From NCBI RefSeq assembly GCF_000688255.1, contig NZ_JHYS01000005.1:186001-250000 (forward strand): 64,000 bases of DNA, written 5' to 3'. Within the stretch, counting starts at the first letter, position 1. Every line of letters starts with the position of its first letter. A program made the translations under genes and the position numbers. Origin of the DNA: Simplicispira psychrophila DSM 11588. Lineage in GTDB: Bacteria > Pseudomonadota > Gammaproteobacteria > Burkholderiales > Burkholderiaceae_C. The notes under the pieces are model-generated. The model ran no database searches, was not told where the DNA came from, and saw nothing but the letters and a program-made list of their open reading frames with translations. This document shows, piece after piece, positions 29,050 to 39,741 of this stretch.

Positions 29050-29070
29050 AAAATGTATCAATATGCCTAC

Positions 29071-29103
29071 GAAAAAGCCATTGTTACCCCCGGTGGCTTT
29101 TTT
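29071..29103 (+). terminator. Rho-independent terminator after amn
   Basis: AAAAAGCCA (29072-29080) pairs perfectly with TGGCTTTTT (29094-29102) around a 13-base loop, ending in a run of six T. The symmetrical A/T flanks would let it act in both directions. Confidence 0.8.
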
Positions 29104-29214
29104 CGTATGGCGAACTACCTAAGACAAACCCTGTGTTGGTCGCACAACGCACTCTCCACAATGGTCCGTGGGCCACAGCGCGCCCACCACATAAAAACCA
29201 GGAGACAACGCGTG

Positions 29215-30927
29215 ATGCATTCCCCCTCTATCCCCCCTACCGACGGCACCCCTTGGCGCCTTCTTGCCCTTGCCAGTGCCGCCTTGGCCCTCACCGCCTG
29301 CGGTGGAAACGACTCGCATCGTTTTAATTTTGATGACGCCAGCAAAGACCTTGCGACCCAGCAAGTGGCTGAAGGCAAGATCGGCCTGCCCACCAAAGGC
29401 GCCACCGTGACGTCGATTGAAACCCCATCTGCGGCCAGCGGAGCCCAGCCCCCTGCCTCCGTGCGCGCCAATATCAGCATTGCACCCGTCGATCCTGCAG
29501 CACCCGCTATCAAAATGGGACTGTTGCTGCCCAAAGAGTGGAACGGCAAGGTCGTGATGTTGGGAGGCGGCGGCTACAACGGCGTCCTGCCCAGCCTCTA
29601 CACCTACCCCGCCGCCCCGGCCAGCCAGGGCGCCTACCCCTTGCTGGCCCAAGGCTACGCGGTGTTTGCCAGCGACTCGGGCCACCAAGCGGGCGCCGCC
29701 GGCAGCCGCGATGGCAGTTTTGGCACTAACGACGAGGCAGTGGCCAACTTCTCAGGCAACGCCTTGAAGAAGGTCAGTGACGTGGCCGATGTACTGGTCA
29801 CCCGCTTTTACGGCAAACAGCCCGAGCGCCGCTACTTCCTGGGGGGATCGACCGGCGGCCGCGAGGCCCTCGCCGTGGCACAAAAATGGCCTGCTGATTG
29901 GGACGGCGTCGTCGCTTGGTACCCAGCCTGGAACGCAGCCAGCCTGGACTTGCAGTTTGGCCGCCTGAGCCGCGCTTTTGCACAACCCGGCGCCTACCCC
30001 AGCCTGGCCCAGCGCAAGTTGCTGCACCAGTCCGCCATCGCCCAGTGCGATGCATTGGATGGCGCTGCAGACGGTGTGATCAGTAACGTAGCGGCCTGCA
30101 ACGCGCAGTTTGACCCGGCTACCGCCCAAGTCAACGGCGCCCCCCTGCGCTGCGCCAGCGGCAGCAACGAAGGCGATCAGTGCCTATCGGACGCAATGAT
30201 CAGCGCACTCAAAACCTACAACACCGCCATCACCTTCAACGCCCCGCTCGGCAGTGGCGAAACCCAGTACCCGGGTTTTAACGTGTGGGGCGCCGATCTG
30301 GGCGAAGAAGGCAGCAGCCCGCTGCAACCCACGGTCAACCTGCTGGCGATGAATACCACTGCCCCCGCCAGCCCGGCGCCGCTGACCGCGCCTTACTGGG
30401 CGGTGTTCTGGGACCAATGGGTGCGCAACTTTGTGACACGCGATGCCAACTTTGACACGCTCTCGCTGGACCCGCAAAACCCCGGGGTCTGGACCGACCG
30501 CATCCACCAACTGAGCCAACTGCAAGACATCAACAGCACCGACCTCTCCGCCTTCAACCAGCGCGGCGGCAAGCTGTTGATGGCGCACGGCACGGCGGAC
30601 GTACTGGTCAGCACCCGCGCCACCGAGCAGTACTACCAGCGTTTAACGCAAACCATGGGCGCCGCCAACGTCAAGTCCTTTGCCCGCTACTACGAAGTAC
30701 CGGGTTACGGCCACGCCGCCAGCACCACGTTCAACGCCAACTGGGATTCGCTCAAGGCACTGGACCAGTGGGTAACCACCGGCACCGCACCCACGGCGCA
30801 AGTGGTGAGCGATACCGCCGGCGTGCCCGGCCGCACTCGGCCACTGTGTGAGTACCCCACGTGGCCACGCTATAACGGCGCAGGCGATGTGAACCAGGCG
30901 GAGAGCTTTAGCTGTGTGACGCAGTAA
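29215..30927 (+). CDS. Tannase/feruloyl esterase family lipoprotein
   Basis: A 570-aa alpha/beta hydrolase of the tannase/feruloyl esterase family. The N-terminus has a lipoprotein signal (LALTACGGN, acylated Cys about residue 25). The nucleophile elbow is GGSTGGREAL, the acid/base region includes LMAHGTADVLVS (Asp) and YEVPGYGHAAS (His), and several cysteines (AQCDALDGAADGV, CRS-like LRCASG) fit the family's disulfides. Enzymes of this group cleave ester bonds of gallate, ferulate or similar aromatic acids; the actual substrate is not evident. AGGAGA lies ten bases before ATG 29215. Confidence 0.9.
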   Translation: MHSPSIPPTDGTPWRLLALASAALALTACGGNDSHRFNFDDASKDLATQQVAEGKIGLPTKGATVTSIETPSAASGAQPPASVRANISIAPVDPAAPAIKMGLLLPKEWNGKVVMLGGGGYNGVLPSLYTYPAAPASQGAYPLLAQGYAVFASDSGHQAGAAGSRDGSFGTNDEAVANFSGNALKKVSDVADVLVTRFYGKQPERRYFLGGSTGGREALAVAQKWPADWDGVVAWYPAWNAASLDLQFGRLSRAFAQPGAYPSLAQRKLLHQSAIAQCDALDGAADGVISNVAACNAQFDPATAQVNGAPLRCASGSNEGDQCLSDAMISALKTYNTAITFNAPLGSGETQYPGFNVWGADLGEEGSSPLQPTVNLLAMNTTAPASPAPLTAPYWAVFWDQWVRNFVTRDANFDTLSLDPQNPGVWTDRIHQLSQLQDINSTDLSAFNQRGGKLLMAHGTADVLVSTRATEQYYQRLTQTMGAANVKSFARYYEVPGYGHAASTTFNANWDSLKALDQWVTTGTAPTAQVVSDTAGVPGRTRPLCEYPTWPRYNGAGDVNQAESFSCVTQ

Positions 30928-30977: not shown

Positions 30978-31023
30978 GATACATGCTCCGTCCAGCAAAG
31001 CCGTCGCTGCCCAGGTTGCAGGC

Positions 31024-31066
31024 ACAAAAAAACCCGGAACACCACCCATCAGGGCCATGTTCCGGG
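31024..31066 (-). terminator. Rho-independent terminator of the phaC-ackA operon
   Basis: On the minus strand, CCCGGAAC and GTTCCGGG (31059-31066 and 31033-31040) form an 8-bp GC-rich stem followed by seven T (31032-31026). It lies about 110 bases past the ackA stop and closes the minus-strand operon that begins at phaC. Confidence 0.85.
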
Positions 31067-31099
31067 ATCAGGCTGCGACACCACTATAGGCCATCCAGC

Positions 31100-31178
31100 C
31101 CTGCAGCGCGCATCCACTATAAAATAAATAGCTTAAAGCGCTTATCCCAAAAGGGCTGCAGGCGCTTTTAACCTATTT
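31100..31178. repeat. Comamonadaceae-type short intergenic repeat (copy 7)
   Basis: AAATAAATAGCTTAAAGCGCTTAT ... AAAAGGGCTGCAGGCGCTTTTAA lies between the ackA stop and the operon terminator, so it should be transcribed in the 3' untranslated region of the operon mRNA. Confidence 0.65.
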
Positions 31179-32429
31179 TTAGACCATATCTGCAGTCATC
31201 AGGCGCTCGGCCTGCATCGGGTGGGCACCACTGGAGGTGTCCTGGCGGATCAGCCGGGACGCTTCGCGCGCTGCCACACGGCCTTCATCGGTCGGCACGA
31301 CCCAAACTTCGACCAAGCTATCCGCCGCGTGGATCGCCTGCGCGCCCAGATCGGCGCTGGCTTGTGCATTGCGCACCGGGTCGATCTGCACACCCAACCA
31401 GCCCAGGCGCTCGCACACCTGCGCGCGCAGCACGGCATCGTTTTCGCCAATGCCACCGCTGAAGGCCAGCACATCGAGCCCCCCCATACAGGCCACCAAA
31501 GCACCCGTTTCACGCACCACCCGGTGCGTGAACTGATCAATAGCGCGCTTTGCAGCCTCCGAGCCGTCGGCGCGCAGGCGGCGCATGTCGGCAGAAATGC
31601 CCGACACGCCCAACAGGCCGCTTTGCTTGTAAAGCAGCTTTTCGATCTGCGCGTGTGTCCAGCCCTGCTCCATCAGGTACAGCGGCACCCCGGCGTCGAG
31701 CGCACCGCTGCGCGTACCCATCATCAAGCCATCCAGCGCTGAAAAGCCCATGGTGGTGGCGCAGCTTTTGGCATCTTTGGCACCACACAGACTGGCGCCG
31801 TTGCCCAAGTGGGCCATCAGCACCCGACCGCGCGCGCGCAGCGAGTGGTGCAGCAATTCATCCATGATGAATTGGTACGACAGGCCATGGAAACCGTAAC
31901 GGCGCACCCCTTGCGCAGCCAGTGATTGCGGCAAGGCAAAGGCGTAATCCACCTCGGGCAGCGTGCCGTGGAAAGCGGTGTCGAAACACGCCACCTGCGG
32001 CAGTTCCGGGAAGGCCAAGCGGAACGAGCGAATGCCTTCCAAGTTGTGCGGCTGGTGCAGCGGGGCGAGCGAGTTCAGGCGCGCCAGGCGCTCCAGTACC
32101 TCATCGGTGACCAGTACGCTCTCGCGAAACTCTTGGCCGCCATGCACCACACGGTGTGCCACGGCGATGATGGCGGGCGTGCCCTGCAGCTGCGCCAGCA
32201 GGGCGCGCAAGCGCGCCAGTGCCTGCACAAAAGCGCTTTGCGCCGGGTCCAGCGCCAGCAGCTCGGTGTGGCGCTGGCCGGCAAAGGTCCAGCCGATTTC
32301 GGGCGCACCGTCCGGCTCCAGACCCTGGATGTTGCCGGTCAGCACGCTGGCCTGCACCTCACCTGCGTGCAGCGGGTGCAGTGAAAATTTCAGCGAGGAC
32401 GAGCCCGCGTTGACAGCAAGAATAGCCAT
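31179..32429 (-). CDS. ackA: Acetate/butyrate kinase (AckA family)
   Basis: A 416-aa member of the acetate kinase family: LAVNAGSSSLKFSL phosphate-binding start, AHRVVHGG, CFDTAFHGTLP, YGFHGLSYQFI, HLGNGASLCG, TRSGALDAG, FSGGIGENDA are all in place. It converts an acyl phosphate and ADP to a carboxylate and ATP. As the last gene of an operon with a phosphotransacylase fusion, FabI and PhaC, its substrate could be acetyl phosphate or butyryl phosphate; the sequence alone does not settle this. It starts 14 bases after the stop of the fusion gene. Confidence 0.95.
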   Translation of the reverse strand: MAILAVNAGSSSLKFSLHPLHAGEVQASVLTGNIQGLEPDGAPEIGWTFAGQRHTELLALDPAQSAFVQALARLRALLAQLQGTPAIIAVAHRVVHGGQEFRESVLVTDEVLERLARLNSLAPLHQPHNLEGIRSFRLAFPELPQVACFDTAFHGTLPEVDYAFALPQSLAAQGVRRYGFHGLSYQFIMDELLHHSLRARGRVLMAHLGNGASLCGAKDAKSCATTMGFSALDGLMMGTRSGALDAGVPLYLMEQGWTHAQIEKLLYKQSGLLGVSGISADMRRLRADGSEAAKRAIDQFTHRVVRETGALVACMGGLDVLAFSGGIGENDAVLRAQVCERLGWLGVQIDPVRNAQASADLGAQAIHAADSLVEVWVVPTDEGRVAAREASRLIRQDTSSGAHPMQAERLMTADMV

Positions 32430-32443
32430 GGCAGTCCGCCTTT

Positions 32444-33886
32444 TCAGTCTTTGAGCAGGGCAGCGGCGCGCACCGTGCGCTCGCGGCGGGCGTCGTAGGC
32501 CGCCAGCACGGCCAGCAGCGCCGAAGACACACGGGCACGCGGACCGTCGGCGCGGCTGGTCAGAGCGATGGGCACGCGCGCGCCGAGCACTAGGCCAGCG
32601 CCCGTCGCGCCGCCAAGGTATTCCAGCTGTTTGGCCAGCATGTTGCCGCTCTCCAGATCGGGTACCGCCAGGATGTCGGCGTGACCGGCCACCACCGAGG
32701 TGATGTGCTTGATTTCAGCGGCTTCGGCGGAGATGGCATTGTCAAACGCCAGCGGGCCGTCCAGGATACCGCCCTGGATCTGGCCGCGATCGGCCATCTT
32801 GCACAGCGCGGCAGCGTCCAGGGTAGAGGGAATATGGGCACTGACGGTTTCGACCGCCGACAGAATGGCCACCTTGGGAAGGTCCACGCCCATGATGCGG
32901 GCGAAGTCGATGGCGTTCTGGATGATATCCACCTTTTCTGCCAGATTGGGGCGGATGTTCAGTGCGGCATCGGTGATCAGCAGGGGCTTGGGGTACAGCG
33001 GCACGTCAAAGCGGAACACGTGCGACATGCGCCGGCCGGTGCGCAGCGAGGGCTCAGCCAGCACGGCCTTGAGCATTTCATCGGTGTGCAGGCTGCCCTT
33101 CATGATCACTTCGACCTCGCCGCGTGCGGCCATGCCAGCGCCCATCTGGGCGGCAGCGTGGCTGTGCTCGACATCCACAATTTCCACACCTTCGAGGCTG
33201 ATATTGGCTTCTGCCGCAACGAAACGGATGCGCTTGGCGGGGCCAATCAGCACCGGCACGATCAGGCCGTGGCGGGCCGAATCGATGGCGCCGCTGAGCG
33301 AGCCGGTATCGCACGGGTGCACCACGGCGCAGCGTACGGCTTCTTTGCCGGCGGCCAGCGCCAACAATTCCTTGAAACGCATTTCCGGGTCGAACAGCTG
33401 GATTTGCGGCGCATTGATCTTGGGCAGGCGCACTTTTTCCGTCGGTGGCATGACGCGGGCAGTGCCGTGCAGCACGACGGCGCCTTTTTGGTTGACCACT
33501 TGGCAGTCCAGCTCGGCACGTTTTTTCTCATCGTCCTTGCTGATCACGGTGGCCGTGACGGTGAGCGTGTCGCCAATGCGCACCGGCTTGACGAACTTCA
33601 GGTTCTGTTCGAGGTAAATGGTGCCCGGGCCGGGAAACTCGGTCCCCAGCAGCGCCGAGATCAGCGCACCGCCCCACATGCCGTGCGCAATCACGCCGTG
33701 GAACAAAGTGTCGTTGGCGTATTCGGCGTTCAGGTGGGCTGGGTTGGTATCACCGGAAACGGCGGCAAAAGCCTGGATGTCGGCTTGCGTCAGGGTGCGC
33801 AGCAGGCGTGCGCTTTGGCCGATGGAGAGTTCGTCGTAAGTGACGTTTTCAAGCCATTGGATGTCTTGGGTCAAATTCATGTTCAT
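32444..33886 (-). CDS. Bifunctional MaoC enoyl-CoA hydratase / phosphate acyltransferase
   Basis: A 480-aa fusion. The N-terminal 150 residues are a MaoC hot-dog domain of the (R)-specific enoyl-CoA hydratase type: FAAVSGDTNPAHLNAEYA holds the catalytic Asp/His, followed by HGMWGGALIS. The remaining 310 residues are a phosphotransacetylase/phosphotransbutyrylase domain (VVHPCDTGSLSGAI, EVIMKGSLHTDEML, LITDAALNIRP, LEYLGGATGAGLVLGARVPI). The pair would interconvert (R)-3-hydroxyacyl-CoA with enoyl-CoA and acyl-CoA with acyl phosphate. ATG 33886 has AAGGA upstream; a second ATG two codons on is possible. FabI precedes and AckA follows in the same operon. Confidence 0.93.
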   Translation of the reverse strand: MNMNLTQDIQWLENVTYDELSIGQSARLLRTLTQADIQAFAAVSGDTNPAHLNAEYANDTLFHGVIAHGMWGGALISALLGTEFPGPGTIYLEQNLKFVKPVRIGDTLTVTATVISKDDEKKRAELDCQVVNQKGAVVLHGTARVMPPTEKVRLPKINAPQIQLFDPEMRFKELLALAAGKEAVRCAVVHPCDTGSLSGAIDSARHGLIVPVLIGPAKRIRFVAAEANISLEGVEIVDVEHSHAAAQMGAGMAARGEVEVIMKGSLHTDEMLKAVLAEPSLRTGRRMSHVFRFDVPLYPKPLLITDAALNIRPNLAEKVDIIQNAIDFARIMGVDLPKVAILSAVETVSAHIPSTLDAAALCKMADRGQIQGGILDGPLAFDNAISAEAAEIKHITSVVAGHADILAVPDLESGNMLAKQLEYLGGATGAGLVLGARVPIALTSRADGPRARVSSALLAVLAAYDARRERTVRAAALLKD

Positions 33887-33926
33887 GGCGGGTGATCCTT
33901 GGATGACAGAGGCAAAGGTTAAAAAA

Positions 33927-34706
33927 TCAGCCCATGGCGTGGCAGCCGCCATCGACATAAATGGTCTGGCCGGTCATGCCCGAAGCCGCGTCGGAGCACA
34001 GAAAACTGCACAACTGGGCAATCTCTTCGAGGTGCACCAGACGGCCCAGCGGTGCCTTGCGCACGGCGTTGGCCATCAGCGCGTCAAAGTCGGCAATGCC
34101 GGACGCGGCGCGCGTCAGGATCGGGCCGGGCGAGACGGCATGAACGCGGATGCGCTTGGAACCCAGCTCCATCGCCATGTAGCGCACCATCGACTCCAAG
34201 GCGGCCTTGACCGGGCCCATCACGCCGTAGTTGGGCACGGCTTCGTCCGCGCCGAGGTAGGTCATGCTGAGCATGCTGCCACCGTTGGGCATGTGCGGCG
34301 CGCACAGATGGGCCAACTTGGCAAAGGAGTGGCACGACACCGTCATGGCGCGGGCAAAACCGGCGCTGGAGCTGTCAATCACCTGGCCGTGCAGGTCGGC
34401 CAGCGGCGCCCAGGCGATCGAGTGCACGACAAAGTCCAGGTGGCCCAGGCGCTCGACAGCACGCGCCACCAGATTTTCCAGTTCACCCTCCTGCTCGACG
34501 TCGCAGGGCACCAGCTCCACTCCGATGGGTGCGGTCAGGGGCTCGACAAAACGGCGCGCCTTCTCGTTCAGACACGACACCACGACTTCAGCGCCCATAG
34601 CGTGGGCCATTTGGGTGCAGCCCCAGGCGATGCTGTGCTCGTTGGCCAAGCCCAGAATGAGACCCTTTTTACCTGCCAAGCTGAAGGGGGATGGATTGAG
34701 CGTCAT
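33927..34706 (-). CDS. fabI: Enoyl-[acyl-carrier-protein] reductase FabI
   Basis: A 259-aa FabI-type short-chain reductase. KKGLILGLANEHSIAWG is the nucleotide-binding start, and HSIAWAPLADLHG, SMTYLGADEAVPNYGVMGPVKAALE (the Tyr-x6-Lys catalytic pair) and RVHAVSPGPILTRAASGI follow as in FabI. It reduces enoyl thioesters with NADH. Set between phaC and a MaoC-PTA fusion, it may be a dedicated paralogue acting on crotonyl thioesters rather than the housekeeping fatty acid synthesis enzyme; whether another fabI exists in the genome cannot be seen here. GGAG lies before ATG 34706. Confidence 0.92.
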   Translation of the reverse strand: MTLNPSPFSLAGKKGLILGLANEHSIAWGCTQMAHAMGAEVVVSCLNEKARRFVEPLTAPIGVELVPCDVEQEGELENLVARAVERLGHLDFVVHSIAWAPLADLHGQVIDSSSAGFARAMTVSCHSFAKLAHLCAPHMPNGGSMLSMTYLGADEAVPNYGVMGPVKAALESMVRYMAMELGSKRIRVHAVSPGPILTRAASGIADFDALMANAVRKAPLGRLVHLEEIAQLCSFLCSDAASGMTGQTIYVDGGCHAMG

Positions 34707-34784
34707 AGAAAAAACTCCAAAAAAGCCAGGGACGGTCATACCGCGCTTGCTGGCAGAGGCACCAAAGTGCTAAAAAAGAAAAAT

Positions 34785-35204
34785 TCAGAAACCGTCAAAC
34801 ACACGGCGCAGGTCGACGCCGGCAGCGCCAGGCTTGAAGCCTTCCAGCTCCAACTGATCCTGGGCATTGACCAAAATACAGCGCGTGGCTTGCACGCCCA
34901 CACGCTCCACGTAACGGCGCGAGACACCATAACGCAGCACCAGCAGGGCACGCAGTTCTTCCTGCTGGTTTGACTTGCGCCGCTCCGGACCAGCAGGCGG
35001 CAGGGCACTGACACGGCGTTCATGGCCGCCGGGGATGCCCCCATCCATGTTCAGCAGGCGATCAAGCTCGTTGTCGTTTTGCAGATTCACGTCGAGCAGC
35101 GTGGCCAAGCGCGCAATGCGGGCACTGAGCTGTTCGACGGAGTTGGACATGCGCTCCAATTGCGCAGTCAGCGCCTCTGCCGTGCCGTCTTTTTCAGTCG
35201 GCAT
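34785..35204 (-). CDS. Uncharacterised coiled-coil protein coupled to phaC
   Basis: A 139-aa protein I cannot assign to a named family. Residues 8-48 (ALTAQLERMSNSVEQLSARI, then ARLATLLDVN) have heptad-like spacing of hydrophobics and should form a coiled coil. A charged linker (GHERRVSALPPAGPERRKSN) leads to a C-terminal part with VLRYGVSRRYVERVGVQATRCILVNAQDQLE. There is no signal peptide or membrane segment. It starts 11 bases before the end of phaC, in another frame, so translation is coupled. Position and coiled coil suggest a PhaE/PhaR-like partner, phasin-like or granule protein, but that is inference. Confidence 0.75.
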   Translation of the reverse strand: MPTEKDGTAEALTAQLERMSNSVEQLSARIARLATLLDVNLQNDNELDRLLNMDGGIPGGHERRVSALPPAGPERRKSNQQEELRALLVLRYGVSRRYVERVGVQATRCILVNAQDQLELEGFKPGAAGVDLRRVFDGF

Positions 35205-37011
35205 ACCGCACCATCACATATTCGCCAGGCGCATCGCACAACACGTTTGCCGGGTCGATGGCCGGAGGCGCCACCGGTTTGCCGGAACGCTCCTGCAGCC
35301 AGGTGTGCATGGCTTCCCACCACGAACCCTCACGCAACGGCGCATTGGCCACCCAGTCGTCGGGATCCATCCAGCCCTGGTTCTTTTCGGTGCAGGCAAT
35401 CTGGTAGCTGCGGCGCGGGCGACCCGGCTCGGACACGATGCCGGCGTTGTGCCCACCGGCAGCCAGAATGAAAGTGACTTGGGTGTCGGTTTGCAGGTTG
35501 ATCTTGTAGACCGAGCGCCACGGCGAAACATGGTCGCGCGCGGTGCCTACCACCAGCATCGGCGCGTCAATATCCATCAGCGCCACGGTCTCGCCAGCCA
35601 CGCGGTACTGACCGGCGGCCAGGGCGTTGTTCAGGAACAGCGAGGACAGGTACTCAGAGTGCATCCGCGCCGGCAAGCGGGTGACGTCGGCGTTCCAGCT
35701 CATCATGTCGAAGTCGGCGTCCTCCTGGCCCAACAGGTAGCGGCGCGTGCTGCGCGACCACACCAGATCGCGCGAGTTGAGAAATTGGAACGAACTGGCC
35801 ATGGCGCGGCCCGACAAATAACCGGTGCTGTCCATTTTCTGGCGCAGCGTCATCAGCTGGTCGTCATCGATAAACACCCCCATTTCACCCGGCTCGCTGA
35901 AGTCGGTCTGCGCGGCCAGCAGCGTGACGCTGGCCAGCTCGGGCATGTCCGGCAGATCCTGGCTACGGCGGTGCGGCACTCGGCCATCGACGCCAAGGCT
36001 TTTGTGCCCTAGCGATGCGGCGACGATGGCCAGAAAGGTGCCGCCCAGGCAGTAGCCCAGGGTGTGGATGCGCGGTGCTTTGGTACGCTGCTTGACGGCG
36101 GCCATCGCCTCCATCACGCCCATGCGCAGGTAGTCCTGCATCTTCAGGTCACGGTCGGAGGCATCGGGGTTGCGCCACGACACCACAAACACCGTGTGGC
36201 CCTGGCCCACTAAGTAGCGCACCATGGAGTTGCTCGGTGACAAGTCCAGGATGTAGTACTTCATGATGCACGAGGGCACGATGAGCACCGGCTCCGGGTA
36301 GACCTTGGCGGTGGTCGGCGTGTATTGGATCAGCTCGATCAGGTGGTTACGGTACACCACCTTGCCCGGCGTCACGGCCACGTCTTTGCCCACTGCGAAG
36401 GTCAGAGGCTGCAGCGATTCAGCGCCGGCAGCGGTGTCGTTTTTAGCGGCACGCGCCTCGGCCATGTCTTCCTTAAGGAGCTGGAAGCCCGCGCGCAGGC
36501 TTTCACCACCGGTTTCGCAGGCCTTTTTGATCACTTCAGGGTTGGTCGTCGGCCAGTTCGAAGGCGCGAGTGAGTCCATCATCTGGCGCGCGAAAAAATT
36601 CACCACCTGACTGTTGTGGCGCGACATGCCATCGACCTGGGTGGCTTCACGCAACCACGTATCGCTGGCCTTGAAGCCCTCTTTCAGAGTGGCAAAAGGC
36701 CATTGGTTCCAACCAGCATCACCAAAGCGGTTGTCCATATCGGGCACTGGCTCGCCTTTATCGTCCGTCTCCGGGTTGGACACCGCCAGCAGGGCCTGCT
36801 GGGTCAGGGCCATGGCGCGTTGCGCCAACACCATCTGGCGCCCTGGCGAGGCCATCATGTGCATGGCCCAATCGGCGCTGGCCATTGCCAGGGAAATGGG
36901 CGACAAACCCATGCTGCTGCGCGACAACTGGGAGTGGCACATTTCATCCAGTGCCTTGGCTGCTTCAGCTTGGCGCTGAGACGCCACACTAGACTTCATC
37001 TTCTTTTCCAT
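35194..37011 (-). CDS. phaC: Polyhydroxyalkanoate synthase, class I-like
   Basis: A 605-aa PHA synthase. An N-terminal PhaC_N region (GLSPISLAMASADWAMHMMASPGRQ, then NRFGDAGWNQWPF) is followed by the alpha/beta hydrolase core. The lipase-like box is GYCLGG with Cys as nucleophile, the Asp lies in VVGTARDHVSPW and the His in AAGGHNAGIVS, giving the expected Cys-Asp-His triad. It polymerises (R)-3-hydroxyacyl-CoA, usually 3-hydroxybutyryl-CoA. ATG 37011 follows AGAGG; a TTG two codons earlier is less likely. No phaA or phaB adjoins it, so this is probably a second, condition-specific synthase locus. Confidence 0.92.
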   Translation of the reverse strand: MEKKMKSSVASQRQAEAAKALDEMCHSQLSRSSMGLSPISLAMASADWAMHMMASPGRQMVLAQRAMALTQQALLAVSNPETDDKGEPVPDMDNRFGDAGWNQWPFATLKEGFKASDTWLREATQVDGMSRHNSQVVNFFARQMMDSLAPSNWPTTNPEVIKKACETGGESLRAGFQLLKEDMAEARAAKNDTAAGAESLQPLTFAVGKDVAVTPGKVVYRNHLIELIQYTPTTAKVYPEPVLIVPSCIMKYYILDLSPSNSMVRYLVGQGHTVFVVSWRNPDASDRDLKMQDYLRMGVMEAMAAVKQRTKAPRIHTLGYCLGGTFLAIVAASLGHKSLGVDGRVPHRRSQDLPDMPELASVTLLAAQTDFSEPGEMGVFIDDDQLMTLRQKMDSTGYLSGRAMASSFQFLNSRDLVWSRSTRRYLLGQEDADFDMMSWNADVTRLPARMHSEYLSSLFLNNALAAGQYRVAGETVALMDIDAPMLVVGTARDHVSPWRSVYKINLQTDTQVTFILAAGGHNAGIVSEPGRPRRSYQIACTEKNQGWMDPDDWVANAPLREGSWWEAMHTWLQERSGKPVAPPAIDPANVLCDAPGEYVMVRYAD

Positions 37012-37116
37012 GGACAACCTCTGGTATGCATTTGCTGCGTTTGGTTACAAGAGAGTGAGTATGCCAAATTTCACACTTGTCGCGGCTTTGTATCAGTAGT
37101 TGCTCCAGCACAAAAT

Positions 37117-37130
37117 TTGACCAAAATCAG
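37117..37130. promoter_or_regulatory. FNR-like site upstream of the phaC operon
   Basis: TTGACCAAAATCAG matches eight of the ten conserved positions of TTGAT-N4-ATCAA. Its centre would be at about -41.5 to -43.5 for a minus-strand start near 37080-37082, where -10-like GATACA (37094-37089) or TACAAA (37092-37087) lies. The geometry is right for low-oxygen activation of phaC-ackA, but the match is imperfect and could be chance. Confidence 0.4.
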
Positions 37131-37317: not shown

Positions 37318-38277
37318 ATGAATAACGCGACCTCCAGCGCACCGTTGCTAAAAGTCCATGCCTTGCGCAAGCAGTACGGCGGTAGCACCGTGGTCGATGG
37401 CGTGTCCTTTTGCATTGCACCGGGCGAGTGTCTGGGCGTGATTGGCCCCAACGGCGCCGGCAAAACCACCACCATCCGTCTGTGCCTGGGGCTGGCGCTG
37501 CCCGATGGCGGCAGCGTGACCTACCAGCCGCCGGGTGGCACACCCACGCTGCAGATGCCGCACGACGCCCTGGCCATCAAGGCGCAACTGGGGGTGGTGA
37601 CGCAGTTCGACACGCTCGACCCGGACTTCAGCTGCGCCGAGAATCTGCGCGTCTATGGCAGCTACTTTGGCCTGTCACGTGCCACGCTGGACGAGCGCAT
37701 CCCGCGCCTGCTGGAATTTGCCGCACTCACCCACAAGGCGCAGGCCAAGCCCGGCGAACTTTCAGGCGGCATGAAGCGTCGCCTGTCGCTGGCGCGCGCA
37801 CTGGTCAACGCGCCGCAATTGCTGCTGCTGGACGAACCCACCACCGGGCTGGATCCACAGGCGCGCCACCTGATGTGGGAGCGCCTGCAGCGCCTGGTGC
37901 AGCAGGGCACCTCGATCCTGCTGACGACGCACTTCATGGACGAGGCCGAGCGCCTGTGCTCGCGCCTGCTGGTGCTCGACCATGGCCGCATCCTGGCCCA
38001 GGGCACGCCGCGCACGCTGATTGCCCAGCACCTGGAGCGCGACGTGGTCGAGGTCTATGGCACCGGCGCGCTGGCGCTGCAGCACGACGCCGCGCTGACC
38101 GCGCTGGCGGCGCGCGTCGAGGTCAGCGGCGAGACGGTGTTTTTCTACACCCCCGACGCCGCGCCCCTGCTGCAGGCGCTGGCCGCCCACACCGCGCTGC
38201 GCGTGCTGCACCGCCCGGCAAATCTGGAAGACCTGTTCCTCAAACTCACCGGACGCCAGATCCGCGAAGATGGCTGA
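37318..38277 (+). CDS. ABC transporter ATPase, NodI/DrrA class
   Basis: A 319-aa ATPase with Walker A GPNGAGKTTT, Q-loop VVTQFDTLDPDFSCAENL, signature LSGGMKRRLSLARAL, Walker B LLLLDEPTTGLDPQARH and H-loop LTTHFMDEAERL. The C-terminal extension ending in LEDLFLKLTGRQIRE is typical of the NodI/ABC-2 subfamily. With its permease partner 0.6 kb downstream it would form an ABC-2 exporter. NodIJ of rhizobia exports lipochitooligosaccharide, but the non-rhizobial homologues probably export another polar lipid, glycan or drug. No Shine-Dalgarno is obvious before 37318. Confidence 0.9.
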   Translation: MNNATSSAPLLKVHALRKQYGGSTVVDGVSFCIAPGECLGVIGPNGAGKTTTIRLCLGLALPDGGSVTYQPPGGTPTLQMPHDALAIKAQLGVVTQFDTLDPDFSCAENLRVYGSYFGLSRATLDERIPRLLEFAALTHKAQAKPGELSGGMKRRLSLARALVNAPQLLLLDEPTTGLDPQARHLMWERLQRLVQQGTSILLTTHFMDEAERLCSRLLVLDHGRILAQGTPRTLIAQHLERDVVEVYGTGALALQHDAALTALAARVEVSGETVFFYTPDAAPLLQALAAHTALRVLHRPANLEDLFLKLTGRQIREDG

Positions 38278-38340
38278 ATCCAGACTTCCCATCAGGCGCA
38301 CTTTCGGCACGGCCTGGCAGCCCCCTTGCTAGACAGCTCC

Positions 38341-38371
38341 GAGATACGTCAGATGGAAATCTGAGCATCTC
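38341..38371. other. Nested inverted repeat after the ABC ATPase gene
   Basis: GAGAT-acgt-CAGAT-ggaa-ATCTG-agc-ATCTC forms a two-part stem around GGAA. It has no T run. It lies at the left side of the scar that separates the ATPase and permease genes and may mark a recombination edge. Confidence 0.4.
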
Positions 38372-38397
38372 AAAAACATAAAGAGAGGGTAGTTTTA

Positions 38398-38625
38398 ATG
38401 GTTTTCAGCGAAGACTCACGGGTCAAGGCCGAACAGGACAACCCGACCATCGGCCTGCTGCTGTGCAAGAACAAAAACAAGGTGGTGGCCGAATACGCGC
38501 TGCGGGATACCGCCCAGCCCATTGGCGTGGCGCACTACCAGCTCGTCGAATCCTTGCCCGCTGCGTTGCAAACCAACTTGCCCAGCATCGAGCAGATCGA
38601 GAGCGAACTGAGGGGCGGGGAATGA
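38398..38625 (+). pseudogene. C-terminal fragment of a YhcG/DUF1016 PDDEXK-like nuclease
   Basis: The 75-codon frame from 38398 encodes KAEQDNPTIGLLLCKNKNKV, then VAEYALRDTAQPIGVAHYQL and LPSIEQIESEL. This is the end of the YhcG (DUF1016) nuclease domain, where DNPTIGLxLCKxK...VEYAL...PIGVAxY is the signature. Full proteins are about 340 aa; the N-terminal DUF1016_N part and most of the nuclease core are missing, and the frame is closed 12 codons before the ATG. A GAGAGGG precedes the ATG, so a small protein could still be made. The piece sits between two subunit genes of one transporter. Confidence 0.8.
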
Positions 38626-38689
38626 GCACGCGCCTGCCAGAAGAACTGACTCTTGGCCTGCCCAAGCACCCATTGCAGGCAAAATAACT

Positions 38690-38748
38690 CCTGAAAATAT
38701 AGCTGCCAGCGCTTGATGGATAAGGGCTAGAAGCCAATTTCATTCAAA
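38690..38748. repeat. Comamonadaceae-type short intergenic repeat (copy 9)
   Basis: TGAAAATATAGCTGCCAGCGCTTGATGGATAAGGGCTAGAAGCCAATTT lies between the yhcG fragment and the purT fragment. As at the Uma2 relic, a repeat copy marks the join between gene remnants. Confidence 0.7.
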
Positions 38749-38757
38749 ATTGATCCA

Positions 38758-38838
38758 TCACACCTTGCCCAACTCGCCCGAGCCGAGCAGCATGACCTTG
38801 GTGGAATGGGGGAGAGCGGGGTGTCGAGCGTCCTTATG
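38758..38838 (-). pseudogene. purT: 5' fragment of purT, frameshifted
   Basis: On the minus strand one frame reads TLDTPLSP and, after a one- or two-base shift, another reads STKVMLLGSGELGKV before a stop at 38758. Together these match the N-terminus of formate-dependent phosphoribosylglycinamide formyltransferase PurT, which I remember starting (M)TxLGTPLSPxATKVMLLGSGELGKEV. Only about 25 codons remain, with no start codon in the right frame, so it is a short relic. It adjoins the repeat at 38690-38748. Confidence 0.75.
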
Positions 38839-38913
38839 GTGCCTTAGATGGACATAAAAACTTCCGGCCACTGTAATCCGCAGCGGCGCGCGCCAAATGC
38901 GCACAATACGACC

Positions 38914-39741
38914 ATGCGCTCCACCACCCTGCCCGACCGCACCGCCGGTCCCTCGATCTGGCGTCCGCCCGGCCTTTCGGGCCGCTGGTGGCCGGTGTTT
39001 TTGCGCCACCTGCGCGTCTGGCGCAAGCTGGCCGTGCCCAGCTTGGTGGGCAACATTGCCGAGCCGCTGATGTGGCTGGTGGCCTTTGGCTACGGCATGG
39101 GCGCGCTGGTCGGCGAACTGACGGTGAACGGGCAAAAGGTGCCCTACATCCTGTTCCTGGCCAGCGGCTCAATCTGCATGAGCGCCATGAACGCCGCCAG
39201 TTTTGAGGCACTGTATTCCGCCTATTCGCGCATGGAAGTGCAAAAAACCTGGGACGGCATTCTGAACACGCCCGTCGGGCTGGACAACATTGTGCTGGCC
39301 GAGATGCTGTGGGCCGCGTTCAAGGCGCTGTTCAGCGCCACCGCCATTCTGGGCGTGATGCTGGCACTGGGCATCAGCCACAGCCCCAAACTGTGGGTGG
39401 CCTGGCCGGTGCTGCTGGGCGTGGGTGTGATGTTTTCGAGCATCGCGCTGATCTTCAACGCGCTGGCCAAAAGCTACGACTTCTTCACCTACTACTTCAC
39501 GCTGGTGCTCACGCCGATGATGTTTTTGTCGGGCGTGTTCTTTCCGCGCGAACAGCTGCCGCCGCTGGTGCGGGCGGTGTCGGACTGGCTGCCGCTGACC
39601 AACGCCATCGAGTTGGTGCGCCCGATGTTCATGGACCAGTGGCCGGCCCAGCCGCTACGCCACGCGCTGGTGCTGGCAGTCACCACGCTGCTGGCGTTCT
39701 GGCTGGCACTGGCGCTGACGCGGCGGCGCTTTGCCCGGTGA
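38914..39741 (+). CDS. ABC-2 type permease, NodJ class
   Basis: A 275-aa ABC-2 permease with about six membrane segments (SLVGNIAEPLMWLVAFGYGMGALVG; YILFLASGSICMSAM; FKALFSATAILGVMLALGI; VLLGVGVMFSSIALIFNALA; YFTLVLTPMMFLSGVFFP; LVLAVTTLLAFWLALAL). The FFPREQLPPLVRAVSDWLPLTNAIELVRP stretch is characteristic of NodJ-like proteins. It is the partner of the ATPase at 37318-38277. ATG 38914 starts near the usual N-terminus. Because the two genes normally touch, the 636 bases between them are unusual. Confidence 0.9.
   Translation: MRSTTLPDRTAGPSIWRPPGLSGRWWPVFLRHLRVWRKLAVPSLVGNIAEPLMWLVAFGYGMGALVGELTVNGQKVPYILFLASGSICMSAMNAASFEALYSAYSRMEVQKTWDGILNTPVGLDNIVLAEMLWAAFKALFSATAILGVMLALGISHSPKLWVAWPVLLGVGVMFSSIALIFNALAKSYDFFTYYFTLVLTPMMFLSGVFFPREQLPPLVRAVSDWLPLTNAIELVRPMFMDQWPAQPLRHALVLAVTTLLAFWLALALTRRRFAR

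Follow-up and report, generated by a model that had tools for sequence, protein, structure and literature searches.

Clusters that combine a polyhydroxyalkanoate (PHA) synthase gene with genes of enoyl reduction, acyl phosphate formation and carboxylate phosphorylation have been described before. Section 11 of PMC8231600 describes phaC-(phaJ-pta)-ackA-fabI clusters of Burkholderia sensu lato (groups D1/D2), some of which add a phaB or an alcohol dehydrogenase gene, proposes that they serve acetate use, and compares them with the PhoB-regulated ORF-pta-ack-fabI operon of Sinorhizobium meliloti. In the passages of PMC8686332 on Cobetia marina and Halomonas, a phaC1-fabI-bi-pta-ackA cluster is interpreted as a means of acetate or propionate assimilation for PHA. 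In Burkholderia cenocepacia, phbB and a gene for a phosphate acetyl/butyryl transferase (M0296, M0298) belong to the lxa locus (PMC6127331); this likeness was judged by the text of the paper, and the terms 'enoyl', 'acetate kinase' and 'hydroxybutyr' are absent from its main text. Here we analysed an operon of this kind in Simplicispira psychrophila DSM 11588, which lies at positions 31,024 to 37,130 of a 64,000-nucleotide stretch of contig NZ_JHYS01000005.1 (the window). It contains the same enzymes as the D1/D2 clusters, including the fusion of a hydratase with a transferase, and its enzyme genes are ordered as in Cobetia and Halomonas. A counterpart of its small second gene, orf139, is not mentioned in section 11 of PMC8231600. 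We consider it somewhat better than even, at a probability of roughly 55%, that this operon encodes an FNR-linked, redox-balancing butyrate branch of polyhydroxybutyrate (PHB) metabolism, and that the published clusters have been misread.

In the proposed scheme, (R)-3-hydroxybutyryl-coenzyme A (CoA) made for PHB would either be incorporated into the polymer by PhaC or be dehydrated to crotonyl-CoA by the MaoC domain. Crotonyl-CoA would be reduced with NADH to butyryl-CoA by the FabI-type enzyme, butyryl-CoA would be converted to butyryl phosphate by a domain resembling phosphate butyryltransferase (PTB), and the AckA-type kinase would release butyrate with formation of one ATP, so that the branch would dispose of electrons under low oxygen. 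We infer the substrates, the cofactor, the direction of flow and the release of butyrate. FabI-type reduction strongly favours the saturated product, and the chain should therefore point outwards. The initial annotation had proposed a conversion of PHB itself to butyrate and ATP; its C4 steps are favoured over acetate by the sequence, but the polymer as the starting point was not supported. Hydrolysis of PHB followed by re-activation with CoA would cost the ATP gained, and net ATP would be obtained from the polymer only with thiolytic mobilisation. The operon has a synthase and no depolymerase, a PhaZ depolymerase being encoded elsewhere in the genome. Taken together, the missing depolymerase and the cost of re-activation make (R)-3-hydroxybutyryl-CoA the most likely point of departure of the branch.

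Five minus-strand genes were called in the order phaC, orf139, FabI-type gene, maoC/pta fusion and ackA-type gene, with an 11 bp overlap between phaC and orf139 and remaining intergenic gaps of 78, 40 and 14 bp. Each enzyme assignment was backed by both Pfam and NCBIfam. The terminator 3' of the ackA-type gene was picked up by RNA folding (-31.9 kcal/mol for 31020-31080, z = -4.43) and not by a simple pattern scanner. The initial annotation had described one minus-strand operon of phaC, a coiled-coil protein, fabI, maoC-pta and ackA closed by a terminator, with which the gene order, the families and the seven-U hairpin agree. The features in the window are as follows.

35194-37011, minus strand: phaC, divergent class-I-like PHA synthase of 605 aa (PhaC_N 179 bits; TIGR01838 497 bits).
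34785-35204, minus strand: orf139, predicted all-helical protein of 139 residues that overlaps the phaC stop, without a Pfam or NCBIfam family.
33927-34706, minus strand: FabI-type short-chain dehydrogenase/reductase, proposed NADH-dependent crotonyl-CoA reductase (NF005717 368 bits, cut-off 337).
32444-33886, minus strand: MaoC-PTA fusion (NF006045 709 bits), hydratase-like at about residues 12-163 and phosphate butyryltransferase-like at about residues 170-471.
31179-32429, minus strand: ackA-type carboxylate kinase (TIGR00016 351 bits, cut-off 293) in which Ala aligns with Pro232.
31026-31066, minus strand: intrinsic terminator 3' of ackA, hairpin with a seven-U tail.
37117-37130, minus strand: FNR-box-like palindrome CTGATTTTGGTCAA upstream of phaC, with one mismatch to TTGAYNNNNRTCAA.
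37058-37064, minus strand: GCATACT, a conserved -10-like motif preceding phaC.

The fusion protein matched NF006045 far above its cut-off of 282 (positions 3-464 of 467). Its PTA half scored 281 bits against the phosphate butyryltransferase model TIGR02706 and 60 bits against classical pta, TIGR00651, neither reaching the cut-off (410.5 and 311, respectively). The best solved match of this half was the phosphate butyryltransferase 7vg9 with 209 bits, and the best phosphate acetyltransferase reached 57 bits. These scores suggest that the PTA half may work like a phosphate butyryltransferase though not filed as one, and on the same family-model scores and structure matches its assignment as an ordinary Pta was rejected. 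For the MaoC half, the best solved match was the (R)-specific enoyl-CoA hydratase 5cpg (132 bits), and the motif SGDTNPAH, whose D and H we take to be the catalytic residues, was readable in the translation.

The FabI-type protein passed the FabI model NF005717 and retained catalytic Tyr146, Tyr156 and Lys163. At the positions of E. coli FabI K201, R204 and K205, which we take to be contacts of the acyl carrier protein (ACP), it has A, D and A. This comparison was extended to 38 operon-type FabIs, namely that of the window and 37 from 99 related loci (at least 45% identity and at least 80% coverage). The catalytic Tyr/Tyr/Lys were retained in this set, except that three members have Phe in place of the first Tyr, but the basic trio was complete in none of the 38. 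Position 204 was Asp in 37 of them; two members still had Lys at 201, and a single one had it at 205. The net charge over the three positions ranged from -3 to 0 in 37 operon-type proteins, versus 0 to +2 in 28 FabI controls taken from relatives, and position 195 was Arg in 37/37 operon-type FabIs compared with Arg in 1/28 and Leu in 27/28 controls. In a tree of 97 sequences, the operon-type FabIs formed one clade (support 0.999) apart from housekeeping FabI; the sole control inside it, L208, is the second FabI of its genome. The genome of the window also encodes a separate housekeeping-type FabI that is 37% identical to the operon FabI, and the idea that the operon copy is the only fatty-acid enoyl reductase of the organism was discarded. 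From these residues we infer that the operon FabI-type enzyme acts on a CoA thioester.

The AckA-type kinase passed the acetate/propionate kinase model TIGR00016, and its best solved match was the propionate kinase 7fj7. Val93, Leu122, Phe179 and Pro232 presumably line the acyl pocket of acetate kinase. The window kinase keeps the first three and has Ala at the fourth. Among 83 kinases adjacent to a fusion, Phe179 was kept in all and Leu122 in 82, and the Pro232 position was Ala in 76, T in 4, S in 2 and P in 1; it was likewise Ala in 10/10 kinases near a single-domain PTB. Pro was found in E. coli AckA and TdcD and in 30/30 controls, which were loci listed for the best-scoring AckA matches and are for this reason biased towards canonical kinases.

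The grouping of these genes is beyond chance. A full-length fusion was found in 20 genomes out of a phylum-wide sample of 299; in the 19 besides that of the window, an AckA-type gene adjoined the fusion in 17 and FabI in the other two. FabI seemed to be absent at the locus L074, but this absence is unsafe, since the contig sequence is interrupted by a stretch of N at that place. A further 80 named fusion relatives, the best 80 of 593, gave a kinase in 72 and FabI together with PhaC in 19; such counts are minimum counts, because several contigs were short. In the combined 99 loci (19 + 80), all collected via the fusion gene, the commonest ORF (open reading frame) families were MaoC-PTA (97), AckA (89), FabI (41) and PhaC (34), with orf139 in 11, in a ranking that leaves aside families with a representative inside an operon gene in another frame or strand. 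Nine further recurrent families were annotated as transporters, glutamate synthase, SIS/GATase and sulfate permease, two of them being without a Pfam match. The order phaC-(orf139)-fabI-maoC/pta-ackA recurred in beta- and alphaproteobacteria, and one Hydrogenophaga and one Rhodospirillales genome showed other gene orders.

The FabI-type gene was also coupled to the transferase across genomes. Over the cut-offs, operon-type FabI was found in 30 of the 299 genomes, the PTB-like family in 48 and both in 23, so that operon-type FabI occurred in 23/48 PTB-like genomes versus 7/251 others (Fisher p 2e-15), and in 12/20 full-fusion genomes versus 18/279 others (p 8e-9), p values that are overstated because the genomes are related. 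Three of the 30 FabI proteins (L177, L178 and L180) resemble the ordinary type in their residues. For 20 further operon-type FabIs the surrounding sequence was fetched, ten of them having been preselected for a nearby PTB-like gene. In all of these ten, a single-domain PTB-like gene and a kinase accompanied FabI within 6 kb, in nine cases on one strand. Among the other ten, one adjoined phaC, another had part of a kinase gene at a distance of about 6 kb, and the remaining eight had no partner gene in the fetched surroundings. PTB-kinase-FabI clusters occurred in Cupriavidus necator N-1 (plasmid pBB1) and Cupriavidus sp. P-10, and Aquabacterium olei had operon-type FabI alone. Within the genus of the window, the fusion was matched in 24/26 genomes, and loci were fetched for 20 of the 23 besides that of the window. 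All five genes were found in ten of them, although one of these loci is truncated by the end of its contig and in another phaC spans two frames.

An oxygen-dependent control was suggested by the upstream regions. Perfect FNR boxes (TTGAYNNNNRTCAA) were sought in the 450 bp that precede the first operon gene in 75 loci (five of the 80 had upstream sequence that was too short) and were found in 16, namely in 9/17 phaC-led loci and 7/58 others. The expected number of loci was 0.13 on average by dinucleotide shuffles (never more than one locus in 200 shuffles) and about 1.1 from the box density over whole loci, and eight control palindromes gave 0 loci each. The motif GCATACT was present in the window and in 9/9 same-genus upstream regions compared, and the distance from the box centre to it was 59 bp in the window and 56, 56 and 58 bp in the three congeners with perfect boxes. 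The genome also encodes an FNR-type protein with CSSCNLRELC (a CxxCx5C Fe-S motif) near its N terminus. The operon is thus probably under FNR control, and an oxygen response would be expected in this organism. The low-oxygen link that the initial annotation had drawn from Burkholderia loci gains support from the FNR boxes upstream of the related operons. For Bradyrhizobium, PMC10888616 reports that FixK2 targets phaC2 and that a phaR mutant shows induction of pta and ackA.

Upstream of phaC in L278, L282, L283 and L284, an element ending in GTCAG was observed where other congeners have the FNR box. It is clearly palindromic (ACTGACC...GGTCAGT) in L278 and L282, and is perhaps the operator of a different regulator.

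Several findings weigh against the butyrate reading. It rests on sequence, and a literature search for the roles assigned here to the ACP-contact and kinase pocket residues came back empty. The PTA half stays under the curated phosphate butyryltransferase cut-off and passes NF008852 (PRK11890; 446 bits, cut-off 413), which is named phosphate acetyltransferase, a name that is annotation and no proof of substrate. The kinase fails the butyrate kinase model TIGR02707 (35 bits, cut-off 289), and Val93 is retained in 83/83 fusion-adjacent kinases, and in 85/85 by another count, as in acetate kinases, which argues for small substrates. The FNR box of the window has one mismatch, and a perfect box was found in only 3/9 congeners compared; the other six, among them the two closest of those compared, L276 and L277, have two or three mismatches at best. 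Operon-type FabI was found in only 32/80 and PhaC in 27/80 named fusion loci, 8/20 fusion genomes have no operon-type FabI over the cut-off, and 10/20 same-genus loci hold only the fusion and the kinase without FabI or PhaC, the fusion in three of these ten being a remote one, about 55% identical. Such FabI-less loci must have their reductase elsewhere or make a different product, for which 3-hydroxybutyrate is a reasonable candidate.

These points bear on three other explanations. The first is the one in print, in which the PTA domain together with AckA would link acetyl-CoA and acetate in either direction, for assimilation or overflow, and so feed or relieve PHB synthesis. PMC8231600 and PMC8686332 interpret such clusters in this way in their passages on them, and the NF008852 match, the membership of the kinase in the acetate/propionate family and its Val93 agree with it. 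Nevertheless, it leaves FabI and MaoC without explanation, gives the transferase a function from whose classical model (60 bits, versus 281 for phosphate butyryltransferase) and solved representatives it is remote, and accounts neither for the Pro232 to Ala exchange nor for the tendency of FabI and the PTB-like gene to occur in the same genomes; we regard it as unlikely. The initial annotation had treated acetate as the conservative reading. The PTB-like transferase, the (R)-hydratase-like MaoC domain, the FabI without the basic trio, the kinase Ala and the FabI-PTB co-occurrence point instead to the C4 route.

The second explanation is that the PTB-like domain and the kinase act directly on (R)-3-hydroxybutyryl-CoA to yield 3-hydroxybutyrate and ATP, MaoC and FabI having other roles. 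Clostridial Ptb-Buk accepts (R)-3-hydroxybutyryl-CoA, although a literature search did not turn this up, and many loci hold the fusion and the kinase without FabI; but the specialised FabI clade and its coupling to the PTB-like gene would be left unexplained, and we give this route a still lower probability than acetate. The least probable is reverse beta-oxidation, in which butyryl-CoA from FabI would enter chain elongation to 3-hydroxyhexanoyl-CoA for a copolymer, with the PTB and kinase exchanging butyryl-CoA and butyrate either way: the operon does contain a PHA synthase, and according to PMC10788006 Ralstonia eutropha H16 forms 3-hydroxyhexanoate units from glucose under low aeration, but no relative of the genome's PhaA thiolase occurred in the 99 loci, a PhaB-like gene occurred in 5/99, and elongation needs no kinase/transferase pair.

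PHB makers are usually viewed as storing excess reductant in the polymer at oxygen shortage, and an ATP-yielding butyrate outlet would be a second valve on the same intermediate. It would explain the company of phaC, fabI and the PTB-kinase pair, and many genes annotated as 'enoyl-ACP reductase' or 'phosphate acetyltransferase' would then carry misleading names. A plasmid of Tateyamaria omphalii (L296:3510-8570) carries phaC-fabI-fusion-kinase between replication genes, the phaC being annotated as an alpha/beta hydrolase, which indicates that the cassette can travel. A wider proposal, which we advance tentatively and at a little under even odds, is that of a portable, FNR-controlled and sometimes plasmid-borne cassette for butyrate fermentation, branching off PHB synthesis in alpha- and betaproteobacteria commonly regarded as respiratory, in which a FabI paralogue that has lost its ACP patch would be an NADH-dependent crotonyl-CoA reductase flanked in its step by the fused hydratase-transferase. 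PMC10788006 describes the crotonyl-CoA reductase native to R. eutropha H16 as unidentified, and the operon-type FabI would be a candidate class for it; the related cluster was seen in C. necator N-1.

The operon PhaC fell below the class I PHA synthase cut-off of TIGR01838 (497 versus 622.65 bits) and above that of PhaC_N, which marks it by sequence as a divergent class-I-like relative. GYCLGG, the D of RDH and GGHN, which we take to be its catalytic motifs, were readable in the translation. The genome has three phaC paralogues, this one included, and another of them passes the TIGR01838 cut-off and adjoins a thiolase gene. A second phaC stands beside a second ackA-type gene in the same genome (L057:5786-9099; at about 378-382 kb of contig C1), with thiL on one side of the pair and a gene encoding a CinA/PncC-type domain on the other. 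The kinase of this pair likewise has Ala at the Pro232 position, and none of the three PTA matches of the genome lies near it.

The product of orf139 had no family match in Pfam or NCBIfam. An alignment of ten sequences of orf139 and relatives contained 17 invariant columns; the genes of this unnamed family of helical proteins sit between phaC and fabI or directly ahead of the fusion gene. The predicted structure was helical (mean predicted local distance difference test score, pLDDT, 71), and a fold search with this model gave no match at E<=0.001. As a guess, the protein is possibly a PhaC- or granule-associated helper.

NodI/NodJ-like ABC transporter genes (37318-39741) are divergent from the operon, and a tannase/feruloyl esterase family gene (29053-30927) is convergent with its 3' end. 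Flanking genes were rejected as operon members, since Pfam and NCBIfam identified them as a NodI/NodJ-like ABC transporter, a tannase and an AMP nucleosidase.

As to novelty, the cluster cannot be regarded as unpublished, given PMC8231600 and PMC8686332. The gene set is already known, and what appears new to the literature found is the butyrate reading: a literature search, with most subscription journals outside its coverage, found no paper proposing a butyrate route for this cluster.

For the proposed steps themselves, a close parallel is the clostridial Ptb-Buk pathway, which shares the conversion of butyryl-CoA through butyryl phosphate to butyrate and ATP. The operon of the window would differ from it in three respects: an (R)-hydratase-like domain is fused to the transferase, a FabI-type reductase stands in place of the Etf-dependent dehydrogenase, and the kinase belongs to the AckA family and not to Buk.

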